A DNA stretch of 40,157 nucleotides, from positions 1 to 40,157 of the forward strand of contig CALEOQ010000503.1 in the NCBI GenBank assembly GCA_937910255.1, given 5' to 3'. The stretch comes from an uncultured Caulobacteraceae bacterium. GTDB lineage: Bacteria > Pseudomonadota > Alphaproteobacteria > Caulobacterales > Caulobacteraceae. Of the stretch, positions 2 through 38,920 are shown one piece after another. The notes under the pieces are model-generated. The model saw only the letters and a list, made by a program, of their open reading frames with translations, was not told the origin of the DNA and did not search any database. The position numbers and the translations under genes were made by a program. Numbering within the stretch: position 1 is the first letter of the stretch; each line of letters begins with the position of its first letter.

Positions 2-310
2 CCTCGGCCAGCCCGTCCCCGCCGCGCGGCCGCTCGCCCCTCGCGGGTCGTGCCGCCGCCGCGTCCGCTGGTGGTGGCCCTGTCCCCGGCGCCTGAGGGG
101 CCCGGCCTGATCACCGACATGGCGCGGCTCGGCGTCCACGCCTGCAAGTGGCCGATCGGCGATCCCAAGAGCCCGGACTTCAGCTTCTGCGGCCGCCATG
201 CGGAAGGGCGCTATTGCACCGCTCACGAGACCCAGGGCGTGCGGCCGGGGACCGCCTGGCGCGTCGACCGCGACCCTGTCGTCCGCCGCGCTTTGGCCGG
301 CTTGATCTGA
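2..310 (+). CDS. gcrA: GcrA-family cell cycle regulator, C-terminal part (5' end outside window)
   Basis: Open frame from the window edge; C-terminus CKWPIGDPKSPDFSFCGRHAEGRYCTAH resembles the GcrA C-terminal motif. Confidence 0.75.
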   Translation, partial: PRPARPRRAAARPSRVVPPPRPLVVALSPAPEGPGLITDMARLGVHACKWPIGDPKSPDFSFCGRHAEGRYCTAHETQGVRPGTAWRVDRDPVVRRALAGLI

Positions 311-323
311 GTGGAGATGAACC

Positions 324-872
324 ATGCTCCCCTCCCCGCTCCTGCGCTACGCGGAGGATCAGCCCGTGGCGGCGGCCGCGCCGCCACGGGCCCCCGGCAG
401 CGGCATGATCATCCCGCCGTTCACCACCCTCGCGGCGTGGCTGGCCGAGATCGATCGCCAAGGCGCCCTGATGCGGGCGAGGCGCTGTCTCTATGAGCGG
501 TTCGACCGCACCGCCCGCGCCCTCACGGCCGGGCGCATCCGCCGGGCGGACGATCCGGTCGCCATTGCCGAGCTGGTGGGTCGCCTACGGGCGGCCCGCT
601 ATCCGTGGGGCCATGACCTCCATGAGCTCGACCGCGTGTGGTCGCGCGCCGAACTCGGCGTCCTGATCACCGAGGCGGTCAATCGCCAGCGGCAGCTGGC
701 CATCGGCCGGGTGACGCCGCGGCTCAAGGGGCCGGCGCTGGATCCTCGGCGGCTGCCGGACGACCGCCTCGATCATCTGATCCAGCATCATAGGGACCTG
801 CAGGTGGTGGATGCGCTGCGCGCCGAGCGCCGGCGGCGCGAGAGCTTGCGAGGCGATCATGCGACCGCCTGA
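324..872 (+). CDS. hypothetical protein
   Basis: 182-aa ORF in the same direction as its neighbours; no family recognised. Confidence 0.6.
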   Translation: MLPSPLLRYAEDQPVAAAAPPRAPGSGMIIPPFTTLAAWLAEIDRQGALMRARRCLYERFDRTARALTAGRIRRADDPVAIAELVGRLRAARYPWGHDLHELDRVWSRAELGVLITEAVNRQRQLAIGRVTPRLKGPALDPRRLPDDRLDHLIQHHRDLQVVDALRAERRRRESLRGDHATA

Positions 873-1731
873 CCGGTCCTACCCGCTGACGCGCGATGTC
901 GACTTCCGCTTCTATGTCGGCATCCACCATCCGCGTCTGGCCTGGCCGCTGACCTTGCGCGGCTTCCCCGTGTGCATCTCGGCCAATGTGCTACGCGACC
1001 GCGTTTGCGAGGTCCCGTTTCTTGGGTGTGATGAGCCCTGGTTGCTGGATTCGGGCGCCTTTACCCAGGTCGCCCTGCAGGGCGGGTTCAGCCAAAGCCC
1101 CAAGGCCTATGCGGCGATGATCCGCCGCTACGCGGCGACGGGTCTCATCGCCGCTTCGACCCAGGACTACATGTGCGAGCTGCTGGCGCTGAAAGCCACG
1201 GGCCTCAGCGTCGCCAGGCATCAGACCCTGACCCTGGACCGGTTCGACGCGATCCAGGACGCTGGCACAGGACGCGTGCATCTGCTTGCCGTGCTGCAAG
1301 GCCGACGGCCCGACGACTACCGTCGTCACCTCGAGGCCTACGGCGACCGCATCGGTCACGGCGCCTGGGTGGGCGTGGGATCGCTCTGCAAGCGTCAGGG
1401 CGACCCGGCGGTGATCGCCGCTATCCTCGACGCCATCCTGCAGGACCGGCCGGACCTGCGGCTGCACGGGTTCGGCTGCAAGCGGACCTCGTTGCTGGAT
1501 GAGGCCGTCAGAAGCCGCCTGGCCACGGCCGACAGCATGGCGTGGTCCTTCGCGGCCCGCTTCGAGGGTCGGGACCAGAACGCCTGGGACGAGGCCGGCC
1601 GGTTCGCGCTCGGCGTGGGCGGGTGTCCAGAAGCGGTGGATCGGCTGGGCGCGGCGGCGGGGTGGCGCCGGGCCGTGGAGAGGTCCGCTGCAGCGTCCGA
1701 ACGCGGGGTGGGCGCGGCCCTCTGGCTCTAG
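859..1731 (+). CDS. DpdA-like / TGT-like deazapurine DNA modification protein
   Basis: Start refined to ATG 859. Motifs FYVGIHHP, WLLDSGAFTQV, QDYMCE, TGLSVARHQTLT, VLQGRRPDDYRRHL, GVGSLCKRQ, LHGFGCK, ADSMAWS match the DpdA-type TGT-like fold. Confidence 0.72.
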   Translation: MRPPDRSYPLTRDVDFRFYVGIHHPRLAWPLTLRGFPVCISANVLRDRVCEVPFLGCDEPWLLDSGAFTQVALQGGFSQSPKAYAAMIRRYAATGLIAASTQDYMCELLALKATGLSVARHQTLTLDRFDAIQDAGTGRVHLLAVLQGRRPDDYRRHLEAYGDRIGHGAWVGVGSLCKRQGDPAVIAAILDAILQDRPDLRLHGFGCKRTSLLDEAVRSRLATADSMAWSFAARFEGRDQNAWDEAGRFALGVGGCPEAVDRLGAAAGWRRAVERSAAASERGVGAALWL

Positions 1732-3100: not shown

Positions 3101-3134
3101 GATGAGCCCGCCGGTCGAGCAACGGAGACTTCAG

Positions 3135-3350
3135 ATGGCGAGCATGGCGATGGCGCAGGCGGTTCTGGAACACGCCCACGAATTCTACGACGTGGGCAAC
3201 TGGTACGTCGTGGCGGAATGCTGGGACCTATGGTCGGTGCAGGAAGAGCTCGATCGCCACGAGGACAGCGCCAAAGTCCCCTTCGGTCTGGAGACCGCGG
3301 CTATCGCCCATTTCGCGAGCCGGTTCGGCGCGCCGCAGCGAGCTCACTGA
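3135..3350 (+). CDS. small hypothetical protein
   Basis: ATG preceded by a CGGAGACTTCAG RBS-like sequence; 71 aa. Confidence 0.55.
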   Translation: MASMAMAQAVLEHAHEFYDVGNWYVVAECWDLWSVQEELDRHEDSAKVPFGLETAAIAHFASRFGAPQRAH

Positions 3351-4491: not shown

Positions 4492-4857
4492 ATGCTGAAC
4501 CAAGTCCAACTGATCGGTTTCACGGGCGCCGACGCGGAAATCCGCAGCACGCAAGGCGGCAAGAAGGTCGCCACCCTGAGGGTCTGCACCAGCCGCTACA
4601 CCAAGAAGAACGGCGAACGGAAGGACTACCCCACCTGGCATCAGGTCGAAATCTGGAACCAGGCGACGGTGAACTGGCTGGCCTCCAAGGGCCTCGCGAA
4701 AGGCTCCAAAGTCTTCGTCCAGGGCGAGATCCGCCACGACCGCTACACCGACAACGATGGCGTCGAGCGGTTCTTCTCCAAGGTGGTCATCGCCATGCCC
4801 GGCCACGAGTTGAAGTCCCTGGACCGGCCGGAGCACAACCCCGCCGACGAGGACTGA
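4492..4857 (+). CDS. ssb: single-stranded DNA-binding protein
   Basis: MLNQVQLIGFTGADAEIR...VATLRVCTS...WHQVEIWN...KGSKVFVQGEI: SSB OB-fold. Confidence 0.93.
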   Translation: MLNQVQLIGFTGADAEIRSTQGGKKVATLRVCTSRYTKKNGERKDYPTWHQVEIWNQATVNWLASKGLAKGSKVFVQGEIRHDRYTDNDGVERFFSKVVIAMPGHELKSLDRPEHNPADED

Positions 4858-5286: not shown

Positions 5287-5466
5287 ATGATGAGCTTGAA
5301 GGTCCCGACGCAGCTGCGCGACGAGATCCGCGCCAAGGCGGTCAAGGAGGGCGTCACCTTGCGCGTGATCGTCCTGCGCGCCCTGAAGGCGGCGGGTTTC
5401 GAGGTGGAGGACGGGGAGCTGGCGGATCGGCGCCCGGCCCACTCGGGCAGGAGAAAAGGCGCGTGA
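5287..5466 (+). CDS. small ribbon-helix-helix-like DNA-binding protein
   Basis: MMSLKVPTQLRDEIRAKAVKEGVTLRVIVLRALKAAGF resembles an RHH/CopG fold; overlaps the parA start (GTGA). Confidence 0.55.
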   Translation: MMSLKVPTQLRDEIRAKAVKEGVTLRVIVLRALKAAGFEVEDGELADRRPAHSGRRKGA

Positions 5467-6227
5467 GAACGATCGTCGTCAACAACCAGAAGGGCGGCGT
5501 CGGCAAGACCATGCTGGCGGTTCATTTGGCTTGGTTCCTCGCCGAGGAGCACGGCGCGCGGGTGCTGTTCGTCGACCTCGATCCGCAGGCCAATGCCTCC
5601 TACACCCTCGACGCGGAGCGCAAGGGCGGCATCAGCTCCGCCCTGTTCTTCGGGCCCGACGTGCAGATCGAGGGCCTTCCCGGCATCACGGTCCTTCGCG
5701 CCGACGAGAAGCTGCATTCGGTCGAACAGCATATCAACACGGCCGTGCCGGCCATGGCCAAGCGGTTTGCGGCGCTGAAGGAGCAGTTCGACTACTGCAT
5801 CGTCGACACGCCGCCGACTTGGGGCGGCCGGAATTTCGCGGCCCTGCTGGTGACCGACTACGTGATCTCGCCCATCGACCTGGAGGATTATTCGCTCCAA
5901 GGCGTCGGCACCCTGCGCAAGCAGGTCAAGCTGGTCGAAGATCAGGCGCGCGGCGGCCGGCGCATCGGTTTCCTGGGCCTCCTCCCCTCGCGGCTCATCA
6001 GCAATTCGCCTCGCCAGCGGGAGAACCTGAAGACCCTGATTAATCAGGGTGGAACCTCCCTTATGTTTGAGGGCGTCATCACTCAGCGCCAGGGTTACGC
6101 CGAGGCGCTGAGCACCAAGACGCCCGTCTGGACCATCAAGAAGTCGGCAGCCCAGGACGCGGGTCGAGAGTTGCGCGGCGTGCTGGCCACCATCAAGGAC
6201 CGCATGGCGGCGCCCGTCGCCGCCTGA
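5463..6227 (+). CDS. parA: ParA-family partition ATPase
   Basis: GTG start; VNNQKGGVGKT Walker A, VDLDPQANAS, IVDTPPTWGG. Confidence 0.93.
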   Translation: MRTIVVNNQKGGVGKTMLAVHLAWFLAEEHGARVLFVDLDPQANASYTLDAERKGGISSALFFGPDVQIEGLPGITVLRADEKLHSVEQHINTAVPAMAKRFAALKEQFDYCIVDTPPTWGGRNFAALLVTDYVISPIDLEDYSLQGVGTLRKQVKLVEDQARGGRRIGFLGLLPSRLISNSPRQRENLKTLINQGGTSLMFEGVITQRQGYAEALSTKTPVWTIKKSAAQDAGRELRGVLATIKDRMAAPVAA

Positions 6228-6237
6228 AAGGATCGCT

Positions 6238-7197
6238 ATGGCACAGAGTAACTTCGCCGATCTTGTGGGAGGCCTGGTCGAAGAGGCCGGCGAGCCGGAC
6301 GGCGCCCGCCTCAAGGACCTGCCGGTCGCGGACATCTACGAAGATCCGAACAACCCGCGGCAGGCCTTCGACAAGGCCGAGCTGGAGGCCCTCGCCGCCT
6401 CGATCCGCAAGCATGGGGTGCTGCAGCCGATCACCGTCCGGCCGAAGGACGAACGCGGCCACATGATTCGCTACGGCGCGCGGCGCTTCCGCGCCGCCCA
6501 GCTTGCCGGGGTGGACAAGGTCGCGGCCATCATCACGACGAGCGACGCCAGCGAGGCCGACATCCTCGCGGCGCAGCTCATCGAGAACGATCAGCGCGAA
6601 GGGCTGAACACCGCGGAGATGGCGGCGGCGGTCCAACGACTGCTGAACCTCGGCCTCAATCAGATGCAGATCGCCGAGAAGCTCGGGCGACCGAAGGACC
6701 AGATCTCGATGTTTGCGGCGGTCAACGACATGCCGCAGCCGCTAAAGGACTTGGCGCCGAAGCTCGGTGTTCGGACACTCTACGAGCTGTCGGGCGCGTG
6801 GAAGCGCGACGCCAAGCGCACCGGAGCGCTGGTTGCGGCCAAGGGCGAGGCGATCACGACGGCGGAGGCCCGAGCGCTGGCGGCCGAGCTGAAGGCCGCC
6901 AAGGCCACGACGCCGCGCGGGAAGCCAGTGGCCGGCGACAATGCACCTGAGCCGGCGGCGGCCGCGCCAGGTCGGCGGAAAGAGAGTTTGGACATACAAA
7001 CCCCCTCCCCTTCGCAGGCCGGCGATGCCGCCGAGGCCCAGGTCAACGGTTTCGAGGTGAAGGTGGGCAAGCGCACAGGCCGCTTGCTGCTGGCCGCCGG
7101 CCCTGACCCGGAAACGGTTTTGATCGCCTTCGACGGCGCCAGCGTCGAGCCGACGCCGGCCGCGACCGTCCGGTTGGTTCGGGCCTGGAGCGAGTGA
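6238..7197 (+). CDS. parB: ParB/KorB-like partition protein
   Basis: PNNPRQAFDKAELEALAASIRKHGVLQPITVRP...RYGARRFRAAQLAG...ENDQREGLNTAEMAAAVQRL, then HTH. Confidence 0.92.
   Translation: MAQSNFADLVGGLVEEAGEPDGARLKDLPVADIYEDPNNPRQAFDKAELEALAASIRKHGVLQPITVRPKDERGHMIRYGARRFRAAQLAGVDKVAAIITTSDASEADILAAQLIENDQREGLNTAEMAAAVQRLLNLGLNQMQIAEKLGRPKDQISMFAAVNDMPQPLKDLAPKLGVRTLYELSGAWKRDAKRTGALVAAKGEAITTAEARALAAELKAAKATTPRGKPVAGDNAPEPAAAAPGRRKESLDIQTPSPSQAGDAAEAQVNGFEVKVGKRTGRLLLAAGPDPETVLIAFDGASVEPTPAATVRLVRAWSE
6986..7001. promoter_or_regulatory. 16-bp palindromic operator, site 2 (inside parB)
   Basis: GTTTGGACATACAAAC, identical to site 3. Confidence 0.65.
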
Positions 7198-8318: not shown

Positions 8319-8831
8319 ATGGCCATGTTCGCCTTCCAGCTTCCCGATGCGCTGGCCGCAAAGTTCGACGCGATCGCCTCCGGCGGCCGCTCCAAAAGGC
8401 TCCGCGCCCTTGTCTCCGAGGCCGTCGGTCAAGCTCCGCCAACCCGGCCCGCAACCGTTCGCGGGCAGTCGACCAAGCTGACTTTGCGGCTCAAGGACGA
8501 GGACCAGGCCGCCCTTGACGCGGCCGCCGAGGCTGACGGGCTGCTGCGGACGGAGTGGGCGTTGGCGGTGCTCCGCCGGCGCCTGCATGGGCGACCGAAG
8601 TTCGGCCGTCGCGAGGAGCTTGGGCTGTTCGCCGTGCAGGAGGAGCTGCGGCGGATCGGGGTCAACCTCAATCAGATCGCCCGTGCGCTCAACACCGCCG
8701 TCATGCCGGGATCGGTGCTCGATGCGGAGATCGCCCAGCTCGAGGCCTTCCGAACCGAGATCCGAGCCCACGTCGGCGGGCTGAAGGCCGCGTTCAGAGG
8801 CAACCTCGACTATTGGGAGGGCGACTCGTGA
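8319..8831 (+). CDS. mobC: MobC-like relaxosome accessory protein
   Basis: ELRRIGVNLNQIARALN motif typical of MobC/MbeC-like proteins; precedes the relaxase. Confidence 0.7.
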   Translation: MAMFAFQLPDALAAKFDAIASGGRSKRLRALVSEAVGQAPPTRPATVRGQSTKLTLRLKDEDQAALDAAAEADGLLRTEWALAVLRRRLHGRPKFGRREELGLFAVQEELRRIGVNLNQIARALNTAVMPGSVLDAEIAQLEAFRTEIRAHVGGLKAAFRGNLDYWEGDS

Positions 8832-9895
8832 GCGATTTCCGAACCGTCCGGGGGTTCGACACGCTGTGGCGGCCACCAGCGGGCGGCCGGAAGATCGTCC
8901 CGAAGCAACCGGTCATCAGCGCGCCGTCAAAGCGGGGCGGCGGGGGTGGGGAGGACAAGGCGCGTCTTGCGCGTGTCGTCCAGAAGGCGCCCGAGGTGAT
9001 GGTCAAGATCACCGGCCGGACCAAGGACGGCGATCATCTTGCGGCGCACCTCGAATACATCTCCCGGAAAGGAGAGCTGGACCTTGAGCAATCGGATGGC
9101 GCTTTGATCCACGGCCGTGAGGCCGTGCGCGAACTGGCCGACGATTGGTCGGAGGTGGGCGAGGGGGACAGCCGACGGCGGGCCAACAGCAACATGTCGG
9201 TGTCCGTCGTCCTGTCGATGCCGGCGGGGACGGACCCCAACCGCCTGAAAGACGCGGTAAGGGCGTTCGCCCGCGCCGAGTTCGGCGACACCTTCCCCTA
9301 TGTGTTCGCCTTCCACCAGGACGCCAAGGGCGAGCAACCCCACATCCATCTCAGTGTGCGGGCCCTGGGCGTAAACGGGGAGCGCTTGAATCCGCGCAAG
9401 GCCGACCTGGCCGATTGGCGCGAGCAGTTCGCCAAGGAGCTGCGCGGGCGGGGTATTCAGGCGGAGGCGACGCCGCGGCGTTCCCGGGGGATCACCCATA
9501 AGCCGGAGCGCACCTCGGTGAGGAAGGCGCGCGAGCGTTTCGAACGGACCGGCGCTAACGAACCGAGGGTGTTGCGCGAGGCGCGGCGTGAAGCTGAGGC
9601 CCTGGCGCACGGTGGGGCCAAGCCACAGCCCTGGGACAAGCAGATGCTTCAGCGGCAAGCGGAGGTTCGTTCAACCTACCAAGCGGCGGCGCGCGTTCTG
9701 GCCGCTTCGGCCGATCCTAAGGACAAGGCCCTTGCGCGCGATGTCCAGGCCTTCGTGAAAGCGATGCCGGCGCCGGTCAGCCGCAAGGTTGCGATGGCGC
9801 GGCAGATCGCTGTCGATGGCCAGCGCGCGCGACCCGCGAGCGAGCCCAAGCCGGATCGACCCGGCCCCGACAAGGGCCGCGGGCGGAATCGTTAG
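8828..9895 (+). CDS. relaxase, MobP/VirD2-like
   Basis: GTG start overlapping the mobC stop; HLEYISRKG, SVVLSMPAGTDP, FAFHQDAKGEQPHIHLSVRA (HxH metal motif). Confidence 0.88.
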   Translation: MSDFRTVRGFDTLWRPPAGGRKIVPKQPVISAPSKRGGGGGEDKARLARVVQKAPEVMVKITGRTKDGDHLAAHLEYISRKGELDLEQSDGALIHGREAVRELADDWSEVGEGDSRRRANSNMSVSVVLSMPAGTDPNRLKDAVRAFARAEFGDTFPYVFAFHQDAKGEQPHIHLSVRALGVNGERLNPRKADLADWREQFAKELRGRGIQAEATPRRSRGITHKPERTSVRKARERFERTGANEPRVLREARREAEALAHGGAKPQPWDKQMLQRQAEVRSTYQAAARVLAASADPKDKALARDVQAFVKAMPAPVSRKVAMARQIAVDGQRARPASEPKPDRPGPDKGRGRNR

Positions 9896-12399: not shown

Positions 12400-14346
12400 T
12401 CAGCGTTCGATAGCTTCGGTCTCAAGCAGGAGGCCGGAGTTGATGTAGCGGTCGATCCATTCTTCGGACTGCTTTTCGGTGGCGCCCGGCGGCAGGTCCT
12501 CGAGGTCGACGGAGTCGAGTTCGAGCGAGATCGCCTCCATGTTCAGCTCCGCCTCGCCTGCGGCCTCGGCCTCGGTCAGCGGCCGCTGAATGATCCGGGC
12601 GTGGATTTCTCCCACTGTGCGGGTGAGATCGGCCAGGTCGGCCGCCATGGCGTCGAGACGGTCATGGGCGCCGGCAGGCTGCGGTGAGGCCGCTGCCGCT
12701 GCAGGAACCGTCGGCGGCCGCTGGACGCGCTTGGTGAAGTCTTTGCTGGCGAAGTAGAAGATCTTGCGGGCCTTCACCGGCGGAATTCCGCCGCGCAGGA
12801 CGATCAAGGCGTCCCGGCTCATCTGCAGGAGCTCCTGCGGCAACATGAGCGCGCGGCGCTGCTCGGAGGCCGTCGTCGTCCATTTGCCGGACCCGACAAA
12901 GGTCGGACGGCTCTTCGAGCGGCCTTCGTAGGTGTAGTAACCCAGACGCTCCGAGAGGTCCTGGGCGACCTTCAGCTCCTTGGGCGTGAAGACCACCTCG
13001 ACACCGCAGTTGGTCATGATCTCCTCAGCGACGTCGGGCCCGTACTCGGCGCGAAGCTGAGAGGGGCTTTGGATAACCGGCAGCAGGCGCAAGCCGTAGC
13101 CGGCGACGTAGGAGAAGCCCTTGGCGATCACAGCCGCATGGCCGAGGCGGGCGAATTCGTCCAACAGAACCAGGACTTGGAGAGGATGGCGGTCGCCGCT
13201 TGGCAGATCGCGGGTGTTGAGGTCGACGAGCTGCTGGAAGAAGAGGTTATAGAGGGGCGCGACGCGGGCCATGTTGTCGGGCGTGACGCCGAGATAGATC
13301 GAGATGCGGCGAGACCGCAGGTCGCGCAGGTCGAAGTCGCTGGCGCTGGTGGCCGCGTCGACGTGCGGATTGAGCCAGAGGTTCATCCGAGAGGTGATGG
13401 TCTGCCTGACGCCGGCGAAGGTGTTGTCGGAGGACGCGCAGAAGTCGCCAAGAGCGTTGACGCAGCCCTTGGAGAGGGGCGCCGGACCCTTGGCACGCGC
13501 TTCGATCAGGGCCAGCAAGCGGGCCTTCGGGTTGCCGGTGGTGAGCTGGCGGTAAATCTCGCCGATGGTGAAAGGCAGATCGGGCGTTTCGGCGACGTAG
13601 GCGCCGACACCGAGAAATCCCGTGCGGGCGGACTCCGCCCAGAAGGGGTCGGTCTTGTCCGGCGACGGGAAGAGCATCGTGGCCAACTTCTGCAGCTCGT
13701 CGAGCGCTTCGACGGAGTTGCGCCGGTCGATCCAGCCCAGGGGATTGTAGCGGGCGGTCCGTCCTTCCGGATCGAGCGGATCGAACATCACGACGTGTTG
13801 TCCGTGCACCGCCCGGAAGCCGGCGCTGGCCTCCCAGTTTTCCTTCTTGATGTCCAAGACCACGACGGAGTCCGGCCAGTTCAGGAGGTTAGGAATGACC
13901 ACGCCGACGCCTTTGCCGGTCCGCGTCGGCGCGTAGAGCATCACATGCTCGGCGCCGCCGAACACCAAGTACCCCGAGCCTTTGCGGCCGAGGATGATTC
14001 CCTTCTTGGCGCGCAGGTTCTCGCGGGCGATTTCTCCCTCGGTCGCCCAGCGCGCCGCGCCATGCAGCGGTCGCCTGACCCGCAGTGCGGCGAGGACGGC
14101 GATGGCAAGGATGAAGAGTCCCGAAGCTAGGCCCGCAACCTTGAACCAGAGCTGGACCTGCGGGTGGGCGCGGTTAGCCCAGAGCCAACGCGGCACGGCG
14201 ACGAAGTCGACGTCGGAGCCCAGCCGTCCAACGCCGGCGAGGGTGCCGACCATCGTCAGCGCCGCCCACAGGATGAGGAGCAGGACTGCGGCGGCCGCGA
14301 CGATGCTGGCCTTACCGGCCGGCGAGGCGCTTGCGAAGCGGGTCAT
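12400..14346 (-). CDS. virD4: type IV coupling protein VirD4/TraG
   Basis: APTRTGKGVGVVIPNLLNW Walker A; LLDEFARLGH Walker B. Confidence 0.95.
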   Translation of the reverse strand: MTRFASASPAGKASIVAAAAVLLLILWAALTMVGTLAGVGRLGSDVDFVAVPRWLWANRAHPQVQLWFKVAGLASGLFILAIAVLAALRVRRPLHGAARWATEGEIARENLRAKKGIILGRKGSGYLVFGGAEHVMLYAPTRTGKGVGVVIPNLLNWPDSVVVLDIKKENWEASAGFRAVHGQHVVMFDPLDPEGRTARYNPLGWIDRRNSVEALDELQKLATMLFPSPDKTDPFWAESARTGFLGVGAYVAETPDLPFTIGEIYRQLTTGNPKARLLALIEARAKGPAPLSKGCVNALGDFCASSDNTFAGVRQTITSRMNLWLNPHVDAATSASDFDLRDLRSRRISIYLGVTPDNMARVAPLYNLFFQQLVDLNTRDLPSGDRHPLQVLVLLDEFARLGHAAVIAKGFSYVAGYGLRLLPVIQSPSQLRAEYGPDVAEEIMTNCGVEVVFTPKELKVAQDLSERLGYYTYEGRSKSRPTFVGSGKWTTTASEQRRALMLPQELLQMSRDALIVLRGGIPPVKARKIFYFASKDFTKRVQRPPTVPAAAAASPQPAGAHDRLDAMAADLADLTRTVGEIHARIIQRPLTEAEAAGEAELNMEAISLELDSVDLEDLPPGATEKQSEEWIDRYINSGLLLETEAIER

Positions 14347-15319
14347 AGTAGAGCTCCGTCATGCGGAAGCGGCCGTCGACCTTCTTCATCTGCACGACCA
14401 CATCGACCAACAGGTGCAGAAGGCTGCGAATGTCGTCCCGCCCGAGATCGCGACCGCCTTCCGACTCTTTGACGAGCAGGGTCAGCTGCTCGAAGGCCAG
14501 GCTGGCGGAATCGGCGTGAACGGTCGTGATCGAGCCGGGATGGCCCGAATTGACGTTGCGGAGGTAGAAAAAGGCGGTCCCATCTCGGAGCTCCTGCAGC
14601 AAGATCCGATCCGGACGCATGCGCAGGGCGCTTTCGAGCAAATGCTTGGGCCCGACCTTCGCGAGGCCCTGCTGGTCCTTCGCATAGATCAGGTGGACGA
14701 CGTTGCGGTGGGGGACCGTGAGTTCACGGGTATCCTCGATCGTCAGCAGCCTCTCGGTCTCCGGGATGAGCTGGATCAGGCCCTTGCTGAAGGTGGTCTT
14801 GCCGGAGCCGGTGGCGCCGCTGATGAGGATGTTCTTCCGGGTCCGGACGGCGAGGTCGAAGAAGGCCGGCCACTCGGCTGCGTCGCGCAGACGCAGCAGC
14901 TCCGTCTCGGTCTCGTCCAACTCGTCGGAGGCGGCCTTCGCCGCCTCAAACAGGCCCGACTTGCAGAAATCCTCCATCCCGAAGGTGATGCTGGAGGGTT
15001 TGCGGATCGTGATCGAAATCTGGTCGACCGGGACCGCAGGCGGCAGCACGACCTGGCAGCGCTCGCCTTGGGGCAGGACCGTTGAGCAGATCGGCGTTTC
15101 GGCGTTCACGTCCTGACGGGTGAAGGCCGCTGCGGCATTGGCCAGAGTGGCGAGCCATGCCGCGCTGAGCTCGGGCACTTCGTGCCAGCGCCAGCCGCCC
15201 GGTGCTTCCACACCGACCTCGCCAGGACGGTTGATCACCAGCTCCGTGACGTCGGCCGGCTCCAGCAGGCGCTGAAGCGGCTGCAGGTAGTGCACCAGGA
15301 CGGAGCTGTCGGCGTTCAT
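14312..15319 (-). CDS. virB11: T4SS ATPase VirB11
   Basis: ISGATGSGKTTFSKGLIQLIPETERLLTIEDTREL; HPGSITTVHADS. Confidence 0.95.
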   Translation of the reverse strand: MNADSSVLVHYLQPLQRLLEPADVTELVINRPGEVGVEAPGGWRWHEVPELSAAWLATLANAAAAFTRQDVNAETPICSTVLPQGERCQVVLPPAVPVDQISITIRKPSSITFGMEDFCKSGLFEAAKAASDELDETETELLRLRDAAEWPAFFDLAVRTRKNILISGATGSGKTTFSKGLIQLIPETERLLTIEDTRELTVPHRNVVHLIYAKDQQGLAKVGPKHLLESALRMRPDRILLQELRDGTAFFYLRNVNSGHPGSITTVHADSASLAFEQLTLLVKESEGGRDLGRDDIRSLLHLLVDVVVQMKKVDGRFRMTELYYDPLRKRLAGR

Positions 15320-16569
15320 CGGGCGCTGACCCCGTAGACGTCGGAGAAGTCGAAGTCCTGGGCCACCATGATCCCGACGTCTTCGCCCTGGTTTTTGCGT
15401 AGGATCGGCGGGAGGTTAATCGAGTTCTGCAGGGCGATCCCGGCGACGTCCGAGGGCACCCGCACCGTATTCTGGAAATTGCGCTGGTCGCCCTGGGCGG
15501 CGATGTAGACCCCGTCGTCGACGAGCGAGAGCAGGATGGCGCTGCCAAAGCGTTCGAAGAACCGGCTGTCGAGATCGCCCCCGAAGCCGGCCCGGCCCAA
15601 TGAGTCTGAGGCCGGAGAGGCGAGGTCGATCGCCACCCCGCGCGGGGTCACGGCGCGGTTCCAGAGGACGAAGAGCCGGCGCTGGCCGCGTTGCATGCCG
15701 CCGCGATATTCGCCGAGGACCTTGGTGCCCTTTTCGAGCAGGACCACGCGGCCGTTGTCGGAGAAGACATCCCTCGGGATGATGCAGGTCGTGTAGCCCG
15801 GCAGCGACGAGTCCATCGCCGTCTGCAGCACGCAAGGAATCTGCGTGCCGGCGAGGATCATGTAGCTGCGGTCGCCCAGGACTTTGGCGCGCGCCGTGTT
15901 GATCGTCGAGCCGCGCCGGAGGTTCTCCAGCTCGGTCGGCGTGCGGGGCGCAGCCATCTCCAGCGGCATGTTCGCCGGTACGGCGGCCGCGTAGCCGTTC
16001 CCGAGTTGGCCGCCACCGGTGGCGCTGAACGCCATGATGGGCGCTCGACGGGACAGATCGGCGAGGCTTTCGCGCGTGCCGCCCGCTGTGGCGCCTTGCG
16101 CACCGTAGGGGCTTGGTGCGGGTACCACCTGGCCGGCCGCGAGGGGTTGGCCCGTCAGCGGATCGATCCCTGGGCCCGGACCAGCGGTCGGCGCCGGCGG
16201 GAGGGGAGGGGGAGGGGTCTTGGCGACCTGATCGTAGCTAACCACCTGGCGGGCCGGTTCTTTTGGCTGTTCCTTGCCGTTGCGGGCGTCGCCACGGTCC
16301 CACGTGAGGAAGAGAAGTAACGCGGCGCCGCCAACCATGGCCACGACGCCCGCCATCTTGGCCTGATCGGAGCTGAAGCGGCCCGCGACGGGCGTGATCC
16401 CGCGCTCACCGGCGATGCCTTCGCCGCGTCCGGTCTCTCGATACTCTGGCGGGATATTGGCGTCGTCCAAGGGGCGACGGCGATTGAAGGGATCGTCGGC
16501 GCCCACCTCGTCGCGGCGGACGTCGTCTTCGGCGCGGCGCGGAGCGCCGGGGTCGTGAGGATCGCTCAT
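15316..16569 (-). CDS. virB10: T4SS protein VirB10
   Basis: AGTQIPCVLQTAMDSSLPGYTTCIIPRDVFSDNGRVVLLEKGTKVLGEYRGGMQRGQRRLFVLWNR. Confidence 0.95.
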   Translation of the reverse strand: MSDPHDPGAPRRAEDDVRRDEVGADDPFNRRRPLDDANIPPEYRETGRGEGIAGERGITPVAGRFSSDQAKMAGVVAMVGGAALLLFLTWDRGDARNGKEQPKEPARQVVSYDQVAKTPPPPLPPAPTAGPGPGIDPLTGQPLAAGQVVPAPSPYGAQGATAGGTRESLADLSRRAPIMAFSATGGGQLGNGYAAAVPANMPLEMAAPRTPTELENLRRGSTINTARAKVLGDRSYMILAGTQIPCVLQTAMDSSLPGYTTCIIPRDVFSDNGRVVLLEKGTKVLGEYRGGMQRGQRRLFVLWNRAVTPRGVAIDLASPASDSLGRAGFGGDLDSRFFERFGSAILLSLVDDGVYIAAQGDQRNFQNTVRVPSDVAGIALQNSINLPPILRKNQGEDVGIMVAQDFDFSDVYGVSAR

Positions 16570-17426
16570 GGCTGTTGTCCCGGGCTGCGGGTGGTCCGTT
16601 CCACGGAGGAGGAGGCCGTGTTGGTCCCGAAATTGACGCCGTAGGGCTGGACGGCTTCGTTGAAGATGCAGAGGACTTCCTTGCCGCGGCGCAGGACGAG
16701 CTTCGGCGCGACGGTGTGGATCACGACGAACTCATCGCGCACATCGAACGGGACCTGGCTCTCTGTGCCGTCAGGATTGGTGGTGAAGAAGCTCGGCAAC
16801 TCCTGGTTCGCCGGGAAGCGCAGCACGGTGAACTGACCGTTGTCCGACACCTCGGACGGCTGGAGCCTCGAGGAGCCCTGGATCGTGTAGTTGAGGTTGC
16901 GTGGCCCCTCGACGACGGCGTGATCGAGCATAAGCCCGGTCCTGGCCTTGTCGATGAGGCCCGCTTGGCGCTCGAGGACCAGCGCCGCGGCCGCGCGTTC
17001 GTCCTGGGGGTAGCGAAACCGGACCTGGAAAAACGTGTCCGGGGAGTTGGCGGAGATCGCGCCGGACCGGACGCCGAGCTCGAAGGTGTAGTTGCGCAGC
17101 TCGGCGCCGCGCCGCGTCGTCACGATGAGGTTCGTAGGCATCCCTTTTTCGCGGGGCTTGATGAAGAGGATGTTGGTCTCCGCCGCGACCTCCCAGGACA
17201 CCGTGTCGCCGAGGGCTACGTGCTGGATTTCCTCCCCCGGCCCGAAAATGATCTGCGTCGCCGTCCGGAAGGTCCCGACGATGCGGACCACCTGCTTGGG
17301 GTCGTAGTCGACCTCTTTGACGCGAGGATCCGCCTGGCCAGGTTTGGGAATGTCGACGGCCGCCGCGGGCGAGGCGATCGTGGCCAGCGCCGCGCTGGCG
17401 ACCAAGGCGAGCAGCGCGCGCTTCAT
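16566..17426 (-). CDS. virB9: T4SS protein VirB9
   Basis: Start refined to 17426 (ATGA overlap with virB8), signal peptide MKRALLALVASAALATIASPAAA; VirB9-like C-terminus. Confidence 0.92.
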   Translation of the reverse strand: MKRALLALVASAALATIASPAAAVDIPKPGQADPRVKEVDYDPKQVVRIVGTFRTATQIIFGPGEEIQHVALGDTVSWEVAAETNILFIKPREKGMPTNLIVTTRRGAELRNYTFELGVRSGAISANSPDTFFQVRFRYPQDERAAAALVLERQAGLIDKARTGLMLDHAVVEGPRNLNYTIQGSSRLQPSEVSDNGQFTVLRFPANQELPSFFTTNPDGTESQVPFDVRDEFVVIHTVAPKLVLRRGKEVLCIFNEAVQPYGVNFGTNTASSSVERTTRSPGQQP

Positions 17427-18103
17427 TGCAGAATCTCCGGATCGGCCCGGTAATTCTGGACTTGGAAGCCCAGCGGATTGCGCAGGCGGTCCGACTCCAG
17501 CATCGGGGCTTGGGTGTATGAGAACGTCAGGGTCGCGATCCAATCGTTGGCTTGGACCTCCTGGGCCTTGCGGACGGTCCGCGTGAACCGGACGTTGGCC
17601 ACCTTGTCGTTGATGAAGGTGATGTTGCGGATCGCGACGGTGGCGACCCCGTCGGGCCCGAGGACCGCCTGCGGGCTCAAGGGGTTGGTCGAGCGGTAGG
17701 CGTCTGCCCAGCGCTGTTGCTCGTCCGGCGTCGACATGATGGAGACGAAGCGGAAGTTCTCTTCGGCCGCAGGCGGGAGGTAGCCCTCGCGGGCCCGGAC
17801 GTACTGGCCGAGGAAGTATTTGCTGACCGCCTCGTTGTAGGTGACGTCCCTGGAGCCATTCACCCCTGTCATCACGTCGACGGCGCCGGTGCTTTCGTTC
17901 ACGCGAACGACGAACGGTTCGACGGTTTTGAGCGGGGCGAGGGCGACGACGGCGGCGATCGACGCCAGCGCCAGACCGCTCGTGATCGCGGCGATCGTCC
18001 AAGCCAGTCGCTTCGACCGATTCGCGGCCTGGACCCGATCCTGGTCCCAGCGCCGGGCTTCTTCAAAATAGGTTTTGAGGTCGTCTGCGGGCACGCCGGT
18101 CAT
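17423..18103 (-). CDS. virB8: T4SS protein VirB8
   Basis: Single N-terminal TM, PFVVRVNESTGAVDVMT, operon position. Confidence 0.92.
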   Translation of the reverse strand: MTGVPADDLKTYFEEARRWDQDRVQAANRSKRLAWTIAAITSGLALASIAAVVALAPLKTVEPFVVRVNESTGAVDVMTGVNGSRDVTYNEAVSKYFLGQYVRAREGYLPPAAEENFRFVSIMSTPDEQQRWADAYRSTNPLSPQAVLGPDGVATVAIRNITFINDKVANVRFTRTVRKAQEVQANDWIATLTFSYTQAPMLESDRLRNPLGFQVQNYRADPEILQ

Positions 18104-18501
18104 CCGCGCCCCTCCGATCCGCAGCTGGAATAGGCTGGCGTCAGCGCCGACACCTTGCGGGCCGCCGCCGCCGCCGCCGCAGGTCGGGTCGCGGCTGTCG
18201 GGGTTTTAGGAACCGCGCCTGTGGCAGAGGGCGGTGGCGCCGCGGCGCCAGTGGGCGATTTTGTCGGCCTGCCGTTGGGCCCAGGCGTCGGCGGCGGAGG
18301 AACGGGCGCCGTTGTTGCCGGCACCGGCGAACCGGGGAGGACCGAGCCGTAGATATTGACCGGACGACGGCTGTGTCCGTCGCACGACTTGGGCTTCGAT
18401 GCGCCGGTGGTGGAGCAGGCGGCCAGGGAAACTGCGCAAGCCGCCAGGGTGACGATACGCAACACGGAAGAATCTCCTCGGAAGGGAAGGGGGGCGTTCA
18501 T
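18100..18501 (-). CDS. Pro/Ala-rich lipoprotein, VirB7-like
   Basis: Lipobox AVSLAAC; located between VirB6 and VirB8. Confidence 0.65.
   Translation of the reverse strand: MNAPLPFRGDSSVLRIVTLAACAVSLAACSTTGASKPKSCDGHSRRPVNIYGSVLPGSPVPATTAPVPPPPTPGPNGRPTKSPTGAAAPPPSATGAVPKTPTAATRPAAAAAAARKVSALTPAYSSCGSEGRG
18199..18216 (+). promoter_or_regulatory. ectopic iteron inside virB7-like gene
   Basis: TCGGGGTTTTAGGAACCG is identical over 18 bp to the oriV iteron at 26493-26510. Confidence 0.75.
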
Positions 18502-19454
18502 CGGCGGGGGTGCCCGTTGCGGTTGCTTCCCGTCTGCCGCGTCGGTCGGACGGACCCGCCGCCTTGAGGGAAGGGACCCCTGCCGCCGCCGACAGGGACC
18601 GATGATGTCCGTTGACCTCCGAAGGCGGCGCTGGCGGCATTGGCGAAATCTCCAATCCCCGCAGCTGCTCCGCCGGCGATCCCGGCCGCGATGTTCGGTG
18701 TCTGAAGGAAGAAGATCCCGCCGAGAATGCAGAGGGCGGTGAACAGCACGCCGCCCATCTCAGGATCAGCCTGGCCGTTGATGCTGGCCCACTGGCCGTC
18801 GACCAACGCAAGGATGAGCTCGAAAATCGTGATGATGAGGGCAAATAGAAGCAGGTAATTCACCCCCTGCTTCAGCCAGCCAAAGAAGAATTGCCTGGAG
18901 GCCTCGAACACCAGGCAGGCGATAAAAATCGGCCCGAGAGCCACTAGGAGCGCCAAAGCGACTTTGGCGATCATGACGATGCCAAATCCTAGTCCGGTGA
19001 CGAGCACAGTCGCGACGATGACGATCGCTGCGGTGATGTAGGGACTGGGATCAACCAGTGTGGCTGTATCGGTGATGCTGGTGGCGAGGTCGAAGCCTCG
19101 CGCCAGGAACTTGTCGAAGGAGTTACCAACCGACGAGACGGTGCCGCCGCTGATCGCGCCGGCGAGCCAGTTGGGTAGGTCGTTGAACAACGGCTGCGTG
19201 ACATAGTCGTTGTAGGCTACGGTCGTAGCGACTGCGAAGATGAAGCAGAGCTTCACCAGACGCAGGACCCCATCCATTATGGGCTCCGAGATTGAGCCGC
19301 GGAAAATCGCGTAGCCGTAGAGGACGATGTAGAGCGTCAGCGCCACGAGGAGCGGACCGCGCACGGCGGCGATCACATTGCCGAGCCCAGTCCCGAGGAA
19401 GTTGGCAAGCTGGCCGTCGACGTATGTGTAGGCTGGTCCGTAAATCTCAAACAC
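18498..19454 (-). CDS. virB6: T4SS protein VirB6
   Basis: Multiple TM segments, VALGPIFIACLVFEASRQFFFGWLKQGVNYLLLFAL. Confidence 0.92.
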   Translation of the reverse strand: MFEIYGPAYTYVDGQLANFLGTGLGNVIAAVRGPLLVALTLYIVLYGYAIFRGSISEPIMDGVLRLVKLCFIFAVATTVAYNDYVTQPLFNDLPNWLAGAISGGTVSSVGNSFDKFLARGFDLATSITDTATLVDPSPYITAAIVIVATVLVTGLGFGIVMIAKVALALLVALGPIFIACLVFEASRQFFFGWLKQGVNYLLLFALIITIFELILALVDGQWASINGQADPEMGGVLFTALCILGGIFFLQTPNIAAGIAGGAAAGIGDFANAASAAFGGQRTSSVPVGGGRGPFPQGGGSVRPTRQTGSNRNGHPRR

Positions 19455-19472
19455 GAGGCTGCTCCAGCATTC

Positions 19473-19736
19473 TTACTTAGCCGGCGGGGCTTCGTAGGTT
19501 TGGCGCAAGATTTCGCGTCGGTTCGCGTGGCGTTGTTTGACTGCGATAGTGTCGGCCGCGAGCTGGGCGAGCTGACACTCTTGGCCGGTGTGGGTGCCAT
19601 TCTTGCAGCCGGCCAATACCTCGGCGCGTTCAGCCTCATGGATCTCGAAGTAGCTTTGGGACCGCGGCTCCCTCCCGCAGCTGGTCAGGCCACAAGCGCC
19701 GATCGCGAGGAGGAGCACTGGGAAAGTCACCTTCAT
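19473..19736 (-). CDS. EexN-like entry exclusion lipoprotein
   Basis: Lipobox LTSC; YFEIHEAERAEVLAGCKNGTHTGQECQLAQLA resembles EexN; located between VirB5 and VirB6. Confidence 0.7.
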   Translation of the reverse strand: MKVTFPVLLLAIGACGLTSCGREPRSQSYFEIHEAERAEVLAGCKNGTHTGQECQLAQLAADTIAVKQRHANRREILRQTYEAPPAK

Positions 19737-20521
19737 TGATAAACCTCCTGTAGGGCCTGATGGCGGGCCTGCCGCCGAGCGGCCGCGGCTTCGCGGTCGC
19801 GTTGTTCGGCCAGTCGGCGCTCTGCGTCCTGCATCATCGCCAAGCCCTGGAGCTGCATCTGGTCGTTGTTGATGAGCGCCTGTTCGGCGTCGATCCGGGC
19901 CTGAAGGTCCATGACCTCCTTCGCGGTCTTGGCGTTGTTGAGGGCAAGGCGGAGTTCATCCAGACCCGTCTGCCGCTGGGACGCGGTGCGGTAGGCGCTT
20001 TCGCCCAGAGCGATGTCGCGGGCGGCGCGATCGCCCGATTTCACGAGCGAGTCCTGATAGTATTGCTCGACGGCCGAGAGCCCCGAGGTCACCGGCGTGA
20101 ACAGACGATTGGCGTCGCGGATCGAAGTCGCCCGCGTGCCGATCGAGCCGAGATCTGAAAGGGTCCCGTTGAGAAGGCGGGAGGTGTCCTGGACTTCCGC
20201 AGGCAGGTAGCGCCGCAGGGCAGGGTTGTTCAGCACACCGGCCAGGCTGTTGACGTTGGTCAGCTTGTTGAAGTCGTCGTAGAGCTGCTGGCCCTGGGAG
20301 ATCAGCCGAGTGCCTTGCTGGACCTGGGTCTGGAGTTCCTGCAACTGTGAGCGTGCTTCGTTGAGCTGCTGCAGCATCCGGGCATAGGCACCGGGATCCG
20401 TAACCGTCATCTGGGCCGAGGCCGGCGGCGCAGCCCCCAGGATGAGGACGGCCGCCGCCGCCCCTAAAAGCCGGGTTCTCATAGGATTCTCCGTCGCTCT
20501 TTCTGGAAGATCGGCCCCCAA
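19733..20521 (-). CDS. virB5: T4SS protein VirB5
   Basis: Signal peptide, coiled-coil, VTDPGAYARMLQQLNEARSQLQELQTQVQQG; operon position. Confidence 0.88.
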   Translation of the reverse strand: MGADLPERATENPMRTRLLGAAAAVLILGAAPPASAQMTVTDPGAYARMLQQLNEARSQLQELQTQVQQGTRLISQGQQLYDDFNKLTNVNSLAGVLNNPALRRYLPAEVQDTSRLLNGTLSDLGSIGTRATSIRDANRLFTPVTSGLSAVEQYYQDSLVKSGDRAARDIALGESAYRTASQRQTGLDELRLALNNAKTAKEVMDLQARIDAEQALINNDQMQLQGLAMMQDAERRLAEQRDREAAAARRQARHQALQEVYQ

Positions 20522-22884
20522 ACGGCGGGGTCGTCGCCGTGCTGGGCCCGGATGCGGTCAAGCAGCTCGACGGTCTCAGCCCGGCCGGACAGGACCGCCA
20601 ATTCGTCGTCAAGGCCGTTGAGGTTCAGCTCGACGACCACGGAGTTGTGTCCCTGCTTGACGAGGAACATCCTGGATTCCGGTGACAGCTCCTCGCGGAC
20701 CAGGCGGAACTCCTCGCGCGTCAGCCCGAAGCCATCGACGTAGTCGCGGGCCTGCCCATAGGGGTTAGGAAGGAAGATCTTGGTCGGGCATTGCTCCAAG
20801 ATCGTGTGCGAGATCTCCGAGCGAAGGACGTCGGCCGGGCTTTGCGTGCCGAACACCATGAAGGCGTTCTTCTTCCGGTAGGTCTTCAGGCCGTCCTGGG
20901 CGAGGCCCCGGAAGCTCTCGTCGCCCAGCGCCTTCCAGAACTCATCGATGTCGACCACGAGGCGGCGGCCGTCGACCAGGGCTTCCAGCCGGTGGATGAG
21001 GTACATCATGATCGGCGTGCGGACCTCGGCGTTGTCGAGGAAGTCCGTCATGTCGAAGCCGATCAAACGGGCCTCCAGCGGCACCTGGTCGATGTCGTTA
21101 TCGAGGACCCAGCCGAGCGAACCCGACCGTGTCCACTTCTCCAGCCGGGCCCCGATGCCCTCGGCGTCGCGCTGGCCGAGTAGCTGGCGGAGGGCGAGGA
21201 GGGAGCGTTGGCGCGGCGCCATGGGCTGGAGGGCGGCGATGCCGTCGGCGATCAGGCGCTCCTCCTGAACGCTCAGCGGCCGATCCGGCGGGGTGACGAG
21301 CTTGCGCACCAGCTGCGATAGAAACACCAAGTTCGCCGGGCTGTAGTCGAGCGCTTGGAAAGGGGCGAAGCCCGTCGGTGACCCGTTCTTGAGAGAGAGG
21401 TAGGTGCCGCCCGACGCCCGGACGAAAATCTCAGCCCCGCGGTCCTTGTCGATGAAGACCTGCTGCGCTCCGAACTTCTCGAGCTGGGCGAGCATGAAGT
21501 TCTGGACGACCGTCTTGCCCGAGCCCGACGGGCCGCAGATGAAGGTGTGGCCGAGATCGCCCGCGTGGAAATTGAAATAGAAAGGCGACAGCGCCGAGGT
21601 GCGGAGCAGCGCCACGGCCGGTCCCCACTGATTGCCGGTCGGCCGGCCGGACGGATAGGTGTGGAAGGGCGACAGGGCCGCGAAATTGCGGGAATTGATG
21701 GCCGCCGGGCGAGACCGCTTAGCAAAGTTCCCGGGGAATTGGGCCCAAAAAGCCGCTTCGAGCGCCAGGTCCTCTCGCGCGACAACCAGACCGGAATCGG
21801 CGAGCGTCGCCCGCGCGGCCGACATGTTGTCTGCGAGCTCCTTGGTGTTGGTTCCGTAGACCAACATCGAGAACTGATGTTCGCCCATGACGAAGCGGTT
21901 GCTGACTAGGTCGTCGATGGCGTCGTCCAGGCCGTCGACCTGGGAATGGGCGCGATCGTTGGCCTTGATGAGCTGGTTCTGTTTGCGCTCCAGGATGGCG
22001 CGCGCCGACGCCTTCGACAGGAAGGCGAAGGATTGGGTGGCGACGAAGGGGTATTTGGCCCGCAGGAGGCCGTCCCACAGGCCTGGCCGTGTGGTGGCGG
22101 GATATTCCTTCACCCCAAAGATGCCGGCGAACTTTTCCTCGCCGGGTTCGCGGATCTCCAGCGCCTCGCGGCCGAAGATCACCCGGCAGGTGTAGAGCGC
22201 ATGGCCCAGATGGCCCCTGACGAGCGGTATCCGCTGCTGGCGGCCGGTCAGGACCAGATGGAGCAGCTCCATCGGCTCGGAGAACGCCAGGCCGTTGTGC
22301 TGATAGAGGCCAAGCGGCCGCACGCCGTACCGCGACAGATACTGGAGAAGGTCGCGTCCCTTGTCCTCAAGGAGCCTGATCGCCTCCTCGTCGACCTCCA
22401 GCCCTGCCCGGCTGCGCGCGCGCAGCCTGTTGAAGAAGGCGGCGGCGCGATCGGCGGCGTCGCGGCCGGGGTGCAGGACCACGGTGACATAGAGATCGTT
22501 GGTGAACAGCCGCGTGCCGGTCACCCGCTTGCGGTACTCGGCGTCGAGATCGCGCGCGAAGGCCGATTGGAAGGCGCCTTCGGGATAGCCGCGATCCTCA
22601 CGCCGGATGATGTGCGTCCAGATGGCCAGGCGTTCGTCGGCAAGGTTGCGCCAGGCATTGTTGAGCTTGGCGTGCCAGTCGTTGATGTCACGCACGTCGG
22701 CCGTCTCGAACGAGGCGCCGTCGAGCTTGAAGCAGATCATCAGGGCGCGATTGTCGAGCGCCACGACATGGTCCGAGACATGCCGAGCGTAGGAAAGATT
22801 GCCGCCCAGCTCGGATTCGCGCTTCAACACGCCCAGAGGCGGCCGCGCCGAGGGCGCGGCCAGCACGGTCGCCGCCTTAGCCAT
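20479..22884 (-). CDS. virB4: T4SS ATPase VirB4
   Basis: GHTFICGPSGSGKTVVQNFMLAQ Walker A; 801 aa. Confidence 0.96.
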   Translation of the reverse strand: MAKAATVLAAPSARPPLGVLKRESELGGNLSYARHVSDHVVALDNRALMICFKLDGASFETADVRDINDWHAKLNNAWRNLADERLAIWTHIIRREDRGYPEGAFQSAFARDLDAEYRKRVTGTRLFTNDLYVTVVLHPGRDAADRAAAFFNRLRARSRAGLEVDEEAIRLLEDKGRDLLQYLSRYGVRPLGLYQHNGLAFSEPMELLHLVLTGRQQRIPLVRGHLGHALYTCRVIFGREALEIREPGEEKFAGIFGVKEYPATTRPGLWDGLLRAKYPFVATQSFAFLSKASARAILERKQNQLIKANDRAHSQVDGLDDAIDDLVSNRFVMGEHQFSMLVYGTNTKELADNMSAARATLADSGLVVAREDLALEAAFWAQFPGNFAKRSRPAAINSRNFAALSPFHTYPSGRPTGNQWGPAVALLRTSALSPFYFNFHAGDLGHTFICGPSGSGKTVVQNFMLAQLEKFGAQQVFIDKDRGAEIFVRASGGTYLSLKNGSPTGFAPFQALDYSPANLVFLSQLVRKLVTPPDRPLSVQEERLIADGIAALQPMAPRQRSLLALRQLLGQRDAEGIGARLEKWTRSGSLGWVLDNDIDQVPLEARLIGFDMTDFLDNAEVRTPIMMYLIHRLEALVDGRRLVVDIDEFWKALGDESFRGLAQDGLKTYRKKNAFMVFGTQSPADVLRSEISHTILEQCPTKIFLPNPYGQARDYVDGFGLTREEFRLVREELSPESRMFLVKQGHNSVVVELNLNGLDDELAVLSGRAETVELLDRIRAQHGDDPAVWGPIFQKERRRIL

Positions 22885-23215
22885 TGGGGAAATCCTTCCT
22901 GCTGTAGCGGCGCAAAACAGTCATTGGCGATGGCGAGCTGCCGCCCCACCAGCTGCGGTTCCGGGCCCGGCCCTTCGTCTCAAACCACATGAAGAGGACG
23001 CGGAACGCGTTGTGGTCGTGCTTGACGATGGCGCGGAAGAGGAAGTGCAGCGCCACCCCGAGGCTGAGGTAGAGGAGGCTGTGTCCGACCAAATAGACGA
23101 AGCCGGTGACGATGACGTTCATCCCCATGGCTTCGACCGGGACGCCGAGCACCATGGCCGGGCGCGTGCAGGCCAGGAATAGGGTGTCTTCAGTGATGCG
23201 TTCGTCGTCTTCCAT
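22877..23215 (-). CDS. virB3: T4SS protein VirB3
   Basis: DTLFLACTRPAMVLGVPVEAMGMNVI typical VirB3 N-terminus. Confidence 0.9.
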   Translation of the reverse strand: MEDDERITEDTLFLACTRPAMVLGVPVEAMGMNVIVTGFVYLVGHSLLYLSLGVALHFLFRAIVKHDHNAFRVLFMWFETKGRARNRSWWGGSSPSPMTVLRRYSRKDFPNG

Positions 23216-23278
23216 GGCGGGGGGACCTCATCCGCTGCGCGACCGCCCCCCGGCGTCGCGTGGCGTGATGACGGGCGG

Positions 23279-23614
23279 CTAGGCCGCGCCGCCCGTCAGG
23301 AGGTTGACGATCTCCGCCGCGCCGAACACGACGATGATCCCCACGACCACGATCGCCATGCGGCGGAAGTCGAAGATCCCGAACATGGCGAGGATGCCCA
23401 TGATTACGATCGCGATCACCGCCAGGAGCCGGGCGGTGTTGCCCGTGAGGATGTCGAGGACGTTCTGTAGCAATCCTTCGACGTTCTGGGCCGCGGCCGG
23501 CTCGACCAGACCGAGCGTCAGGACAAGGACGGCGAAGGTTACAGCGCCGATCCGCCGCGCGGTCGTGATCCGCGCGCCGACCGGCCTATGACCGATTCCT
23601 TGTGGGCTCATCAT
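23279..23614 (-). CDS. virB2: VirB2/TrbC pilin
   Basis: Signal peptide followed by two hydrophobic helices. Confidence 0.9.
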   Translation of the reverse strand: MMSPQGIGHRPVGARITTARRIGAVTFAVLVLTLGLVEPAAAQNVEGLLQNVLDILTGNTARLLAVIAIVIMGILAMFGIFDFRRMAIVVVGIIVVFGAAEIVNLLTGGAA

Positions 23615-23948
23615 GGGGGGCTGGCTCCTGCTTCTCTGTTTCGAGAATTATCGGGCCGTAGTAGTGGTATGCGTCCCGACAATGGGCGACCGCGGCGGAC
23701 AAGTGTTTGTACCGCTTCGGTTTCGTAGAGCCGTAGACGGAGACCAGATGTTCTCCGCTCTTCCAGCTCAACGTGACGTACATGGTCCATGTACTTTCGG
23801 TCGCCTCGACGATCCGGACGCCGACAATCCTGCCGCTCTTTGGCCGCAGGCTGGTCAGCATTCGCTCTCGGATCGTCCCGTCGGGCATACGCCCCACCCC
23901 CAAGCTCACAAGGGGTCCAGCATACGTCGGCGGGGCAGCCGTGGTCAC
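23586..23948 (-). CDS. hypothetical protein between VirB1 and VirB2
   Basis: 120-aa ORF collinear with the virB operon; no family recognised. Confidence 0.55.
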   Translation of the reverse strand: MTTAAPPTYAGPLVSLGVGRMPDGTIRERMLTSLRPKSGRIVGVRIVEATESTWTMYVTLSWKSGEHLVSVYGSTKPKRYKHLSAAVAHCRDAYHYYGPIILETEKQEPAPHDEPTRNRS

Positions 23949-23978
23949 GTTTGACGTTTTTGAAGGCGATCAGCTTGC

Positions 23979-31735: not shown

Positions 31736-31746
31736 GGGCGACGATC

Positions 31747-35567: not shown

Positions 35568-35580
35568 AGGGGGGGCTGCC

Positions 35581-38118: not shown

Positions 38119-38127
38119 GGCTGAGCC

Positions 38128-38604: not shown

Positions 38605-38810
38605 CCACGAATTTCTCGCAGTTCCGGCGGTCATTGCGCCGGCTGCTGCCGGCTGCGCCTGAGGCCGGCGCCAACACTGCAGTTCTCTAGTCCCGCAGGA
38701 ATATGCGACTTTCGGACCACTTACGTCACACTCTAGCTGAAGCAAAGGCGACGAACGACGACCGGCACAGACGTTGATCGCCGGCTGCTGCTCGGCCACA
38801 GTTGGCCTTG

Positions 38811-38884
38811 ATGGGGATGGAGTGCCCCCGATAACCGCCGCTGTGGCTGATGACTCCTACCTCGCGCCGTTCTGGCGGAGGTAG
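38811..38884 (+). ncRNA. fluoride riboswitch (crcB motif)
   Basis: GGGGATGGAGTGCCCCCGATAACCGCCGCTGTGGCTGATGACTCCTAC matches the crcB RNA consensus, followed by a CTACCTC...GAGGTAG hairpin; upstream of crcB. Confidence 0.9.
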
Positions 38885-38920
38885 GTTCGTGCGCCGCCTC
38901 CGAGACAATCGAGGAGGCAT

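Follow-up and report, generated by a model that had tools for sequence, protein, structure and literature searches.

A dpdA-family transglycosylase gene on a conjugative plasmid of the Caulobacteraceae and its possible use of host-made preQ0

The stretch of DNA analysed here, in the following called the window, is a complete contig (G000:C503) of 40,157 bp from an uncultured Caulobacteraceae bacterium. It opens with the C-terminal part of a GcrA-type regulator (50-310, plus strand), the N-terminal part of which lies past the contig end; a full-length homologue (L106:6936-7439) matches PF07750. A gene for a 182-aa protein of unknown family follows (324-872, plus strand), and its end overlaps by 14 nt the start of a dpdA-family transglycosylase gene (859-1731, plus strand), so that translational coupling of the two genes is possible. 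Further along the same strand are genes for a SLOG-superfamily protein (YAcAr/DUF2493; 1866-2795), a small conserved protein that belongs to the cassette described below (3129-3350), a single-strand DNA-binding protein (SSB; 4492-4857), a ParA-type partition ATPase (5463-6227), a ParB/KorB-type partition protein (6238-7197) and a MobA/VirD2-type relaxase (8555-9895). SSB, ParAB and dpdA form one same-strand block, the relaxase lies about 7 kb from dpdA, and no oriT was located. Conjugation genes occupy the minus strand from 12400 to 24614 (coupling protein, TrbB-like ATPase, TrbI, TrbG/CagX, TrbL, TrbE and an SLT transglycosylase), and a RepA-type replication initiator (RPA) is encoded at 25156-26181 on the plus strand. 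With a replication initiator, partition genes, a relaxase, a coupling protein and a Trb-type T4SS next to the SSB, the contig is, judged by its gene content, a conjugative plasmid, as had been proposed in the first-pass annotation. Its ends share no overlap that would indicate a circular molecule. Also on the plasmid, at 29277-39310, are genes for an outer-membrane factor, an HlyD-type protein, an RND pump and a P-type ATPase (metal efflux) as well as one of CrcB type, with a resolvase gene after them.

The source genome contains three copies of dpdA: that of the window, a second on contig C510 (63% identity) and a fragment on C290 (81%). Within the family, dpdA was found in 12 of 300 Caulobacteraceae-level genomes, nine of them from the window's own genus. 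Since the named relatives that carry the gene are mainly Phenylobacterium, the host is very likely a Phenylobacterium or a close relative. As left neighbour of the window, contig C462 is plausible: it stops in the GcrA region and, with L105 as reference, the window starts about 80 bp beyond that point. The two were not joined, since C462 may just as well go with the C290 copy. Contigs C510 (L002), C66 (L085) and C462 (L190) end in sequence that resembles Illumina adapters (with peptides like 'RKSTRLNSSHVVISYAVFCLKKKK') or in low-complexity junk, and gene breaks close to contig ends are therefore to be distrusted.

The window dpdA starts with ATG and encodes 290 aa; an in-frame ATG at 811 would lengthen the product to 306 aa, with the extra part overlapping the preceding gene. 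Six motifs had led to the initial reading of a DpdA-type, TGT-like enzyme, and all of them (LDSGAF, QDYMCE, VLQG, GVGSLCKRQ, HGFGCK and ADSMAWS) are present in the translation. The reading is borne out by matches of the 290-aa product to the Pfam family PF23859 'DpdA' (E 2.5e-35, 122.3 bits at a cut-off of 27) and to PHROG 1279 'queuine tRNA-ribosyltransferase' (E 3.9e-50). At the sequence level this family match is far beyond chance, and by these profiles the ORF is a member of a widespread PF23859 branch within the known DpdA family. A PDB sequence search with the single window protein as query gave no match. PhnG, the sole NCBIfam match, lay below the cut-off and was dropped as an identity. 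Compared with Caulobacteraceae orthologues of 80-91% identity, the gene shows dN/dS values of about 0.1-0.16. Values of 0.11-0.16 indicate that it is kept as a protein, and purifying selection, as read from these substitution ratios, acts on it. This bears on the view that the gene is a decaying passenger without a present role on the plasmid. Frameshifts break dpdA in Phenylobacterium haematophilum and Phenylobacterium sp. J367 (L116:8001-8869 and L111:8001-8871), which means that the gene is dispensable or that these assemblies contain errors, and a damaged copy in another genome as well as the C290 fragment in the source genome would also be in line with decay. However, the window ORF is not only under constraint but intact, with every motif residue retained, and its SLOG neighbour is retained in all 13 loci compared. 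Decay is thus a very improbable description of the window gene.

An alignment of 46 homologous sequences was the base for both the conservation count and an AlphaFold2 model. Invariant in this alignment are D64, S65, D103, C106, E107, Q147, G148 and C177, and further towards the C-terminus H203, F205, G206, K208, D225, S226, M227, W229 and S230. The model of the window protein has a mean pLDDT of 84 and a pTM of 0.82, with residues 260-290 being unreliable. In a Foldseek search against the PDB, every one of the best 50 matches listed is a TGT (prob 1.00, E 1.7e-7 to 7.7e-6, TM about 0.5, identity 13-18%), so the predicted structure has the TGT barrel that had been suggested as a check. By motif reading, LDSGAF, QDY and ADS of the window protein are the counterparts of DSGGF, DEC and FDC in the host Tgt. 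The roles of the Asp residues at the corresponding TGT positions are established, and Asp64, Asp103 and Asp225, all invariant, are the putative catalytic equivalents. The predicted TGT-type fold together with these Asp positions is what characterizes the DpdA family, and a TGT-fold transglycosylase of this family is the highly probable enzyme class. Fold and catalytic Asp positions are shared with bacterial Tgt (PF01702), but the window protein is shorter, lacks the zinc site, is borne on a mobile element and has no match at the sequence level. It matches neither PF01702 nor the CxCxxC...H zinc motif of tRNA Tgt; the absence of CxCxxC, noticed early on, was confirmed by a motif check of the 290 aa.

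The fold raises the question of whether the enzyme acts on RNA, be it tRNA or another RNA, instead of DNA. A TGT fold is what such an enzyme would have, phage members are annotated as 'queuine tRNA-ribosyltransferase', and our literature search found no DNA activity for the PF23859 branch. Against this stand the missing zinc motif and the Tgt of the host, which makes a second tRNA enzyme unnecessary, and the genomic setting. The homologues listed lie on phages, on plasmids and in phage-like regions; they occur in 98 plasmid records, in 398 phage records (390 of them mycobacteriophages) and in 220 stretches of viral contigs, and adjoin DNA-metabolism genes such as those for DNA methyltransferases, RecT, SSB and RadC. 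We consider an RNA target rather unlikely, and DNA is the likely target of the window DpdA.

The DpdAs of 9g, CAjan and the Rosebush type modify DNA with 7-deazaguanines (PMC6884629). For comparison, the DpdA of Hedgerow (taxonomically Rosebushvirus rosebush) stands in for that of Rosebush. The PF23859 profile does not match the DpdA of 9g, CAjan, Hedgerow or Salmonella phage 7-11, and BLASTP aligned nothing meaningful between the window protein and the Rosebush-type DpdA. Comparison of profiles linked the window family with 9g DpdA (95% probability, E 2.3e-8), with Hedgerow DpdA (90%, E 1.6e-6) and weakly with CAjan DpdA (56%, E 1.1e-4), the outer motifs being aligned, and gave no convincing alignment with the DpdA of Salmonella phage 7-11. 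The 9g alignment pairs LDSGAF, HGFG and ADSxxW of the window protein with LDSGAF, HGFG and CDSSSW of 9g, and the QDYMCE region faces an Asp-containing region; a similar pattern is seen with Hedgerow. According to the profile alignments, the 9g/CAjan/Rosebush type shares with the window protein a pattern of DSGAF, HGFG/HAFG/HGWG and DSxxW, and it likewise has no CxCxxC zinc motif. Lack of a PF23859 match combined with remote profile similarity places the window protein in a branch other than that of the DNA-modifying DpdAs: by these comparisons it is only remotely related to the validated DpdAs and lies outside their clade. Another difference is that phages of the 9g/CAjan/Rosebush type bring their own preQ0-synthesis genes, while none was recognised around the window dpdA. 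As had been noted from the letters, neither preQ0-synthesis nor other Dpd genes are visible: Pfam matched none among the scanned window ORFs, dpdB-K included, the left neighbourhood being cut by the contig end. Common ground with the Dpd restriction-modification island (DpdA-K) is the DpdA idea, and no PADLOC model matches the window DpdA, the upstream gene, the SLOG protein or the small neighbour.

PF23859 and PHROG 1279 are typified by the lone dpdA of mycobacteriophages of the genera Pegunavirus (e.g. Sigman) and Anayavirus, and the best PF23859 scores (466 and 583 bits) belong to such lone DpdAs. Sigman gp20 is 34% identical to the window protein over 226 alignment columns, and every motif is common to both. 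Neither gene has preQ0-synthesis neighbours, but that of the window resides on an alphaproteobacterial plasmid and not on a phage. The Sigman DpdA also has a C-terminal Cys cluster (C229, C236, C239), which the window protein does not have. In the Sigman member (L091:3989-4762) this cluster follows the nucleophile Asp, at the position of the TGT zinc site. Of the types of relative that have been tested, the nearest is the lone DpdA of mycobacteriophage Orion, which we take to group with the Sigman-like (cluster B1) phages. Orion, which encodes DpdA only, had no detectable 7-deazaguanine in M. smegmatis, and this null result was ascribed to the lack of a preQ0 pathway in M. smegmatis (PMC6884629). 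The host of the window plasmid, in contrast, has preQ0-pathway genes. The PF23859 branch is thus common on plasmids and phages, yet our literature search found no member with demonstrated activity.

That lone DpdAs draw on host intermediates was suggested earlier for phages encoding only dpdA, and 9g DpdA alone in E. coli produced dPreQ0 in plasmid DNA (PMC6884629). The window gene is a PF23859 member in a less studied setting to which this existing idea applies. Genes of the queuosine pathway are present in its host: QueC matches were found in the source genome, split or partial in the fragmented assembly, as was an own Tgt, and from ORF reading QueD and QueE adjoin QueC, and QueA adjoins Tgt. 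The host Tgt (L086:1501-2565, minus strand) has SSCPAS at the expected CxCxxC, with two of the three zinc Cys apparently missing. The presence of queC, queD, queE, tgt and queA makes host-made preQ0 plausible for the window plasmid, and we judge the case for it as the substrate of the window DpdA to be evenly balanced. Host preQ0 is no general answer, since 20 of 29 actinobacterial carriers are without QueC over the cut-off. This figure comes from 50 named genomes carrying the family, surveyed at the NCBIfam cut-off with the group split counted from rows and titles, among which QueC was above the cut-off in 27 (18/21 outside Actinomycetota, 9/29 within). With carriers that lack queC being this frequent, the substrate question can be put to the test.

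If the enzyme works as TGT does, C1' of a guanosine in DNA would be attacked by an Asp, Asp225 being the most likely one; guanine would then depart and be replaced by a 7-deazaguanine, for which preQ0 from the host queuosine pathway is the most likely candidate, and Asp64 and Asp103 would recognise and activate the incoming base. The plasmid would mark its own DNA in this way, possibly other cellular DNA too, and the marked plasmid may be less sensitive to restriction during transfer or establishment. CAjan needed dpdA for modification and restriction resistance, and EcoRI was not blocked by dPreQ0 from 9g DpdA alone (PMC6884629). An anti-restriction benefit to the plasmid is conceivable, at somewhat less than even likelihood, and the same caution applies to calling the window DpdA a shield against restriction enzymes. 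The best explanation as a whole, in which plasmid DpdA swaps guanine in DNA for host-made preQ0 and lowers restriction sensitivity, may be right or wrong in about equal measure. DNA modification by base exchange is well described for phages and hardly for conjugative plasmids. A plasmid dpdA whose host has the queuosine pathway offers a clean test case for whether lone DpdAs use host preQ0 and whether plasmids pass restriction more easily as a result.

The neighbourhood offers a different candidate source of the base. We describe here a conserved Caulobacteraceae cassette, recognised from gene order and apparently new, of GcrA, dpdA, SLOG/DUF2493 and SSB. The SLOG/DUF2493 gene is downstream of dpdA in 13/13 Caulobacteraceae genome loci; most close relatives have the 182-aa gene upstream of dpdA, L107 has it downstream, and in others it is replaced. 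Recurrent around dpdA are the GcrA-type regulator, the 182-aa gene, SSB and RadC, and also a C5 DNA methyltransferase, a Strawberry-notch-type helicase and partition genes. Often two PP-loop 'PAPS reductase' genes accompany the cassette upstream; one protein of the pair is a PAPS_reduct (PF01507) match, and Pfam recognises no family in the other. In a Shinella plasmid and a Hyphomicrobiales contig, this pair stands immediately before dpdA. PP-loop enzymes include QueC, which synthesises preQ0. It is hence conceivable, if unlikely, that the enzyme exchanges bases in DNA with a substrate other than plain preQ0, made or tailored by element-encoded enzymes such as these PP-loop proteins. The many actinobacterial carriers without QueC are in line with this, as is a PP-loop gene no more than 1.3 kb away on the same strand in 10 of the 14 non-Caulobacteraceae loci having one (rough binomial P 5e-5, a figure that ignores the general clustering of early phage genes). 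On the other side, most homologues have no PP-loop neighbour, and PP-loop genes were not found in the window; two lie elsewhere in the genome, on C462 and C510. In the reverse test, dpdA was present in 4/80 phage PAPS-reductase loci, and the idea of PAPS reductase as an obligate DpdA partner was rejected as a general rule on this count. RecT control loci had dpdA in 2/44, a number biased by a RecT query taken from a dpdA locus. Viral contigs scanned with the Phenylobacterium PP-loop protein gave no relative. The PP-loop association is a lead only, and host preQ0 stays the preferred substrate for the window enzyme. Less probable still is that a cassette of PF23859 transglycosylase, one or two PP-loop ATPases and the SLOG protein installs a base outside the described 7-deazaguanines; if true, it would modify plasmid and phage DNA even in hosts without preQ0 synthesis. 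As a separate observation on a phage locus, in Rhizobium phage RHph_TM3_3_3 an annotated attL (L087:12165-12179) lies inside dpdA.
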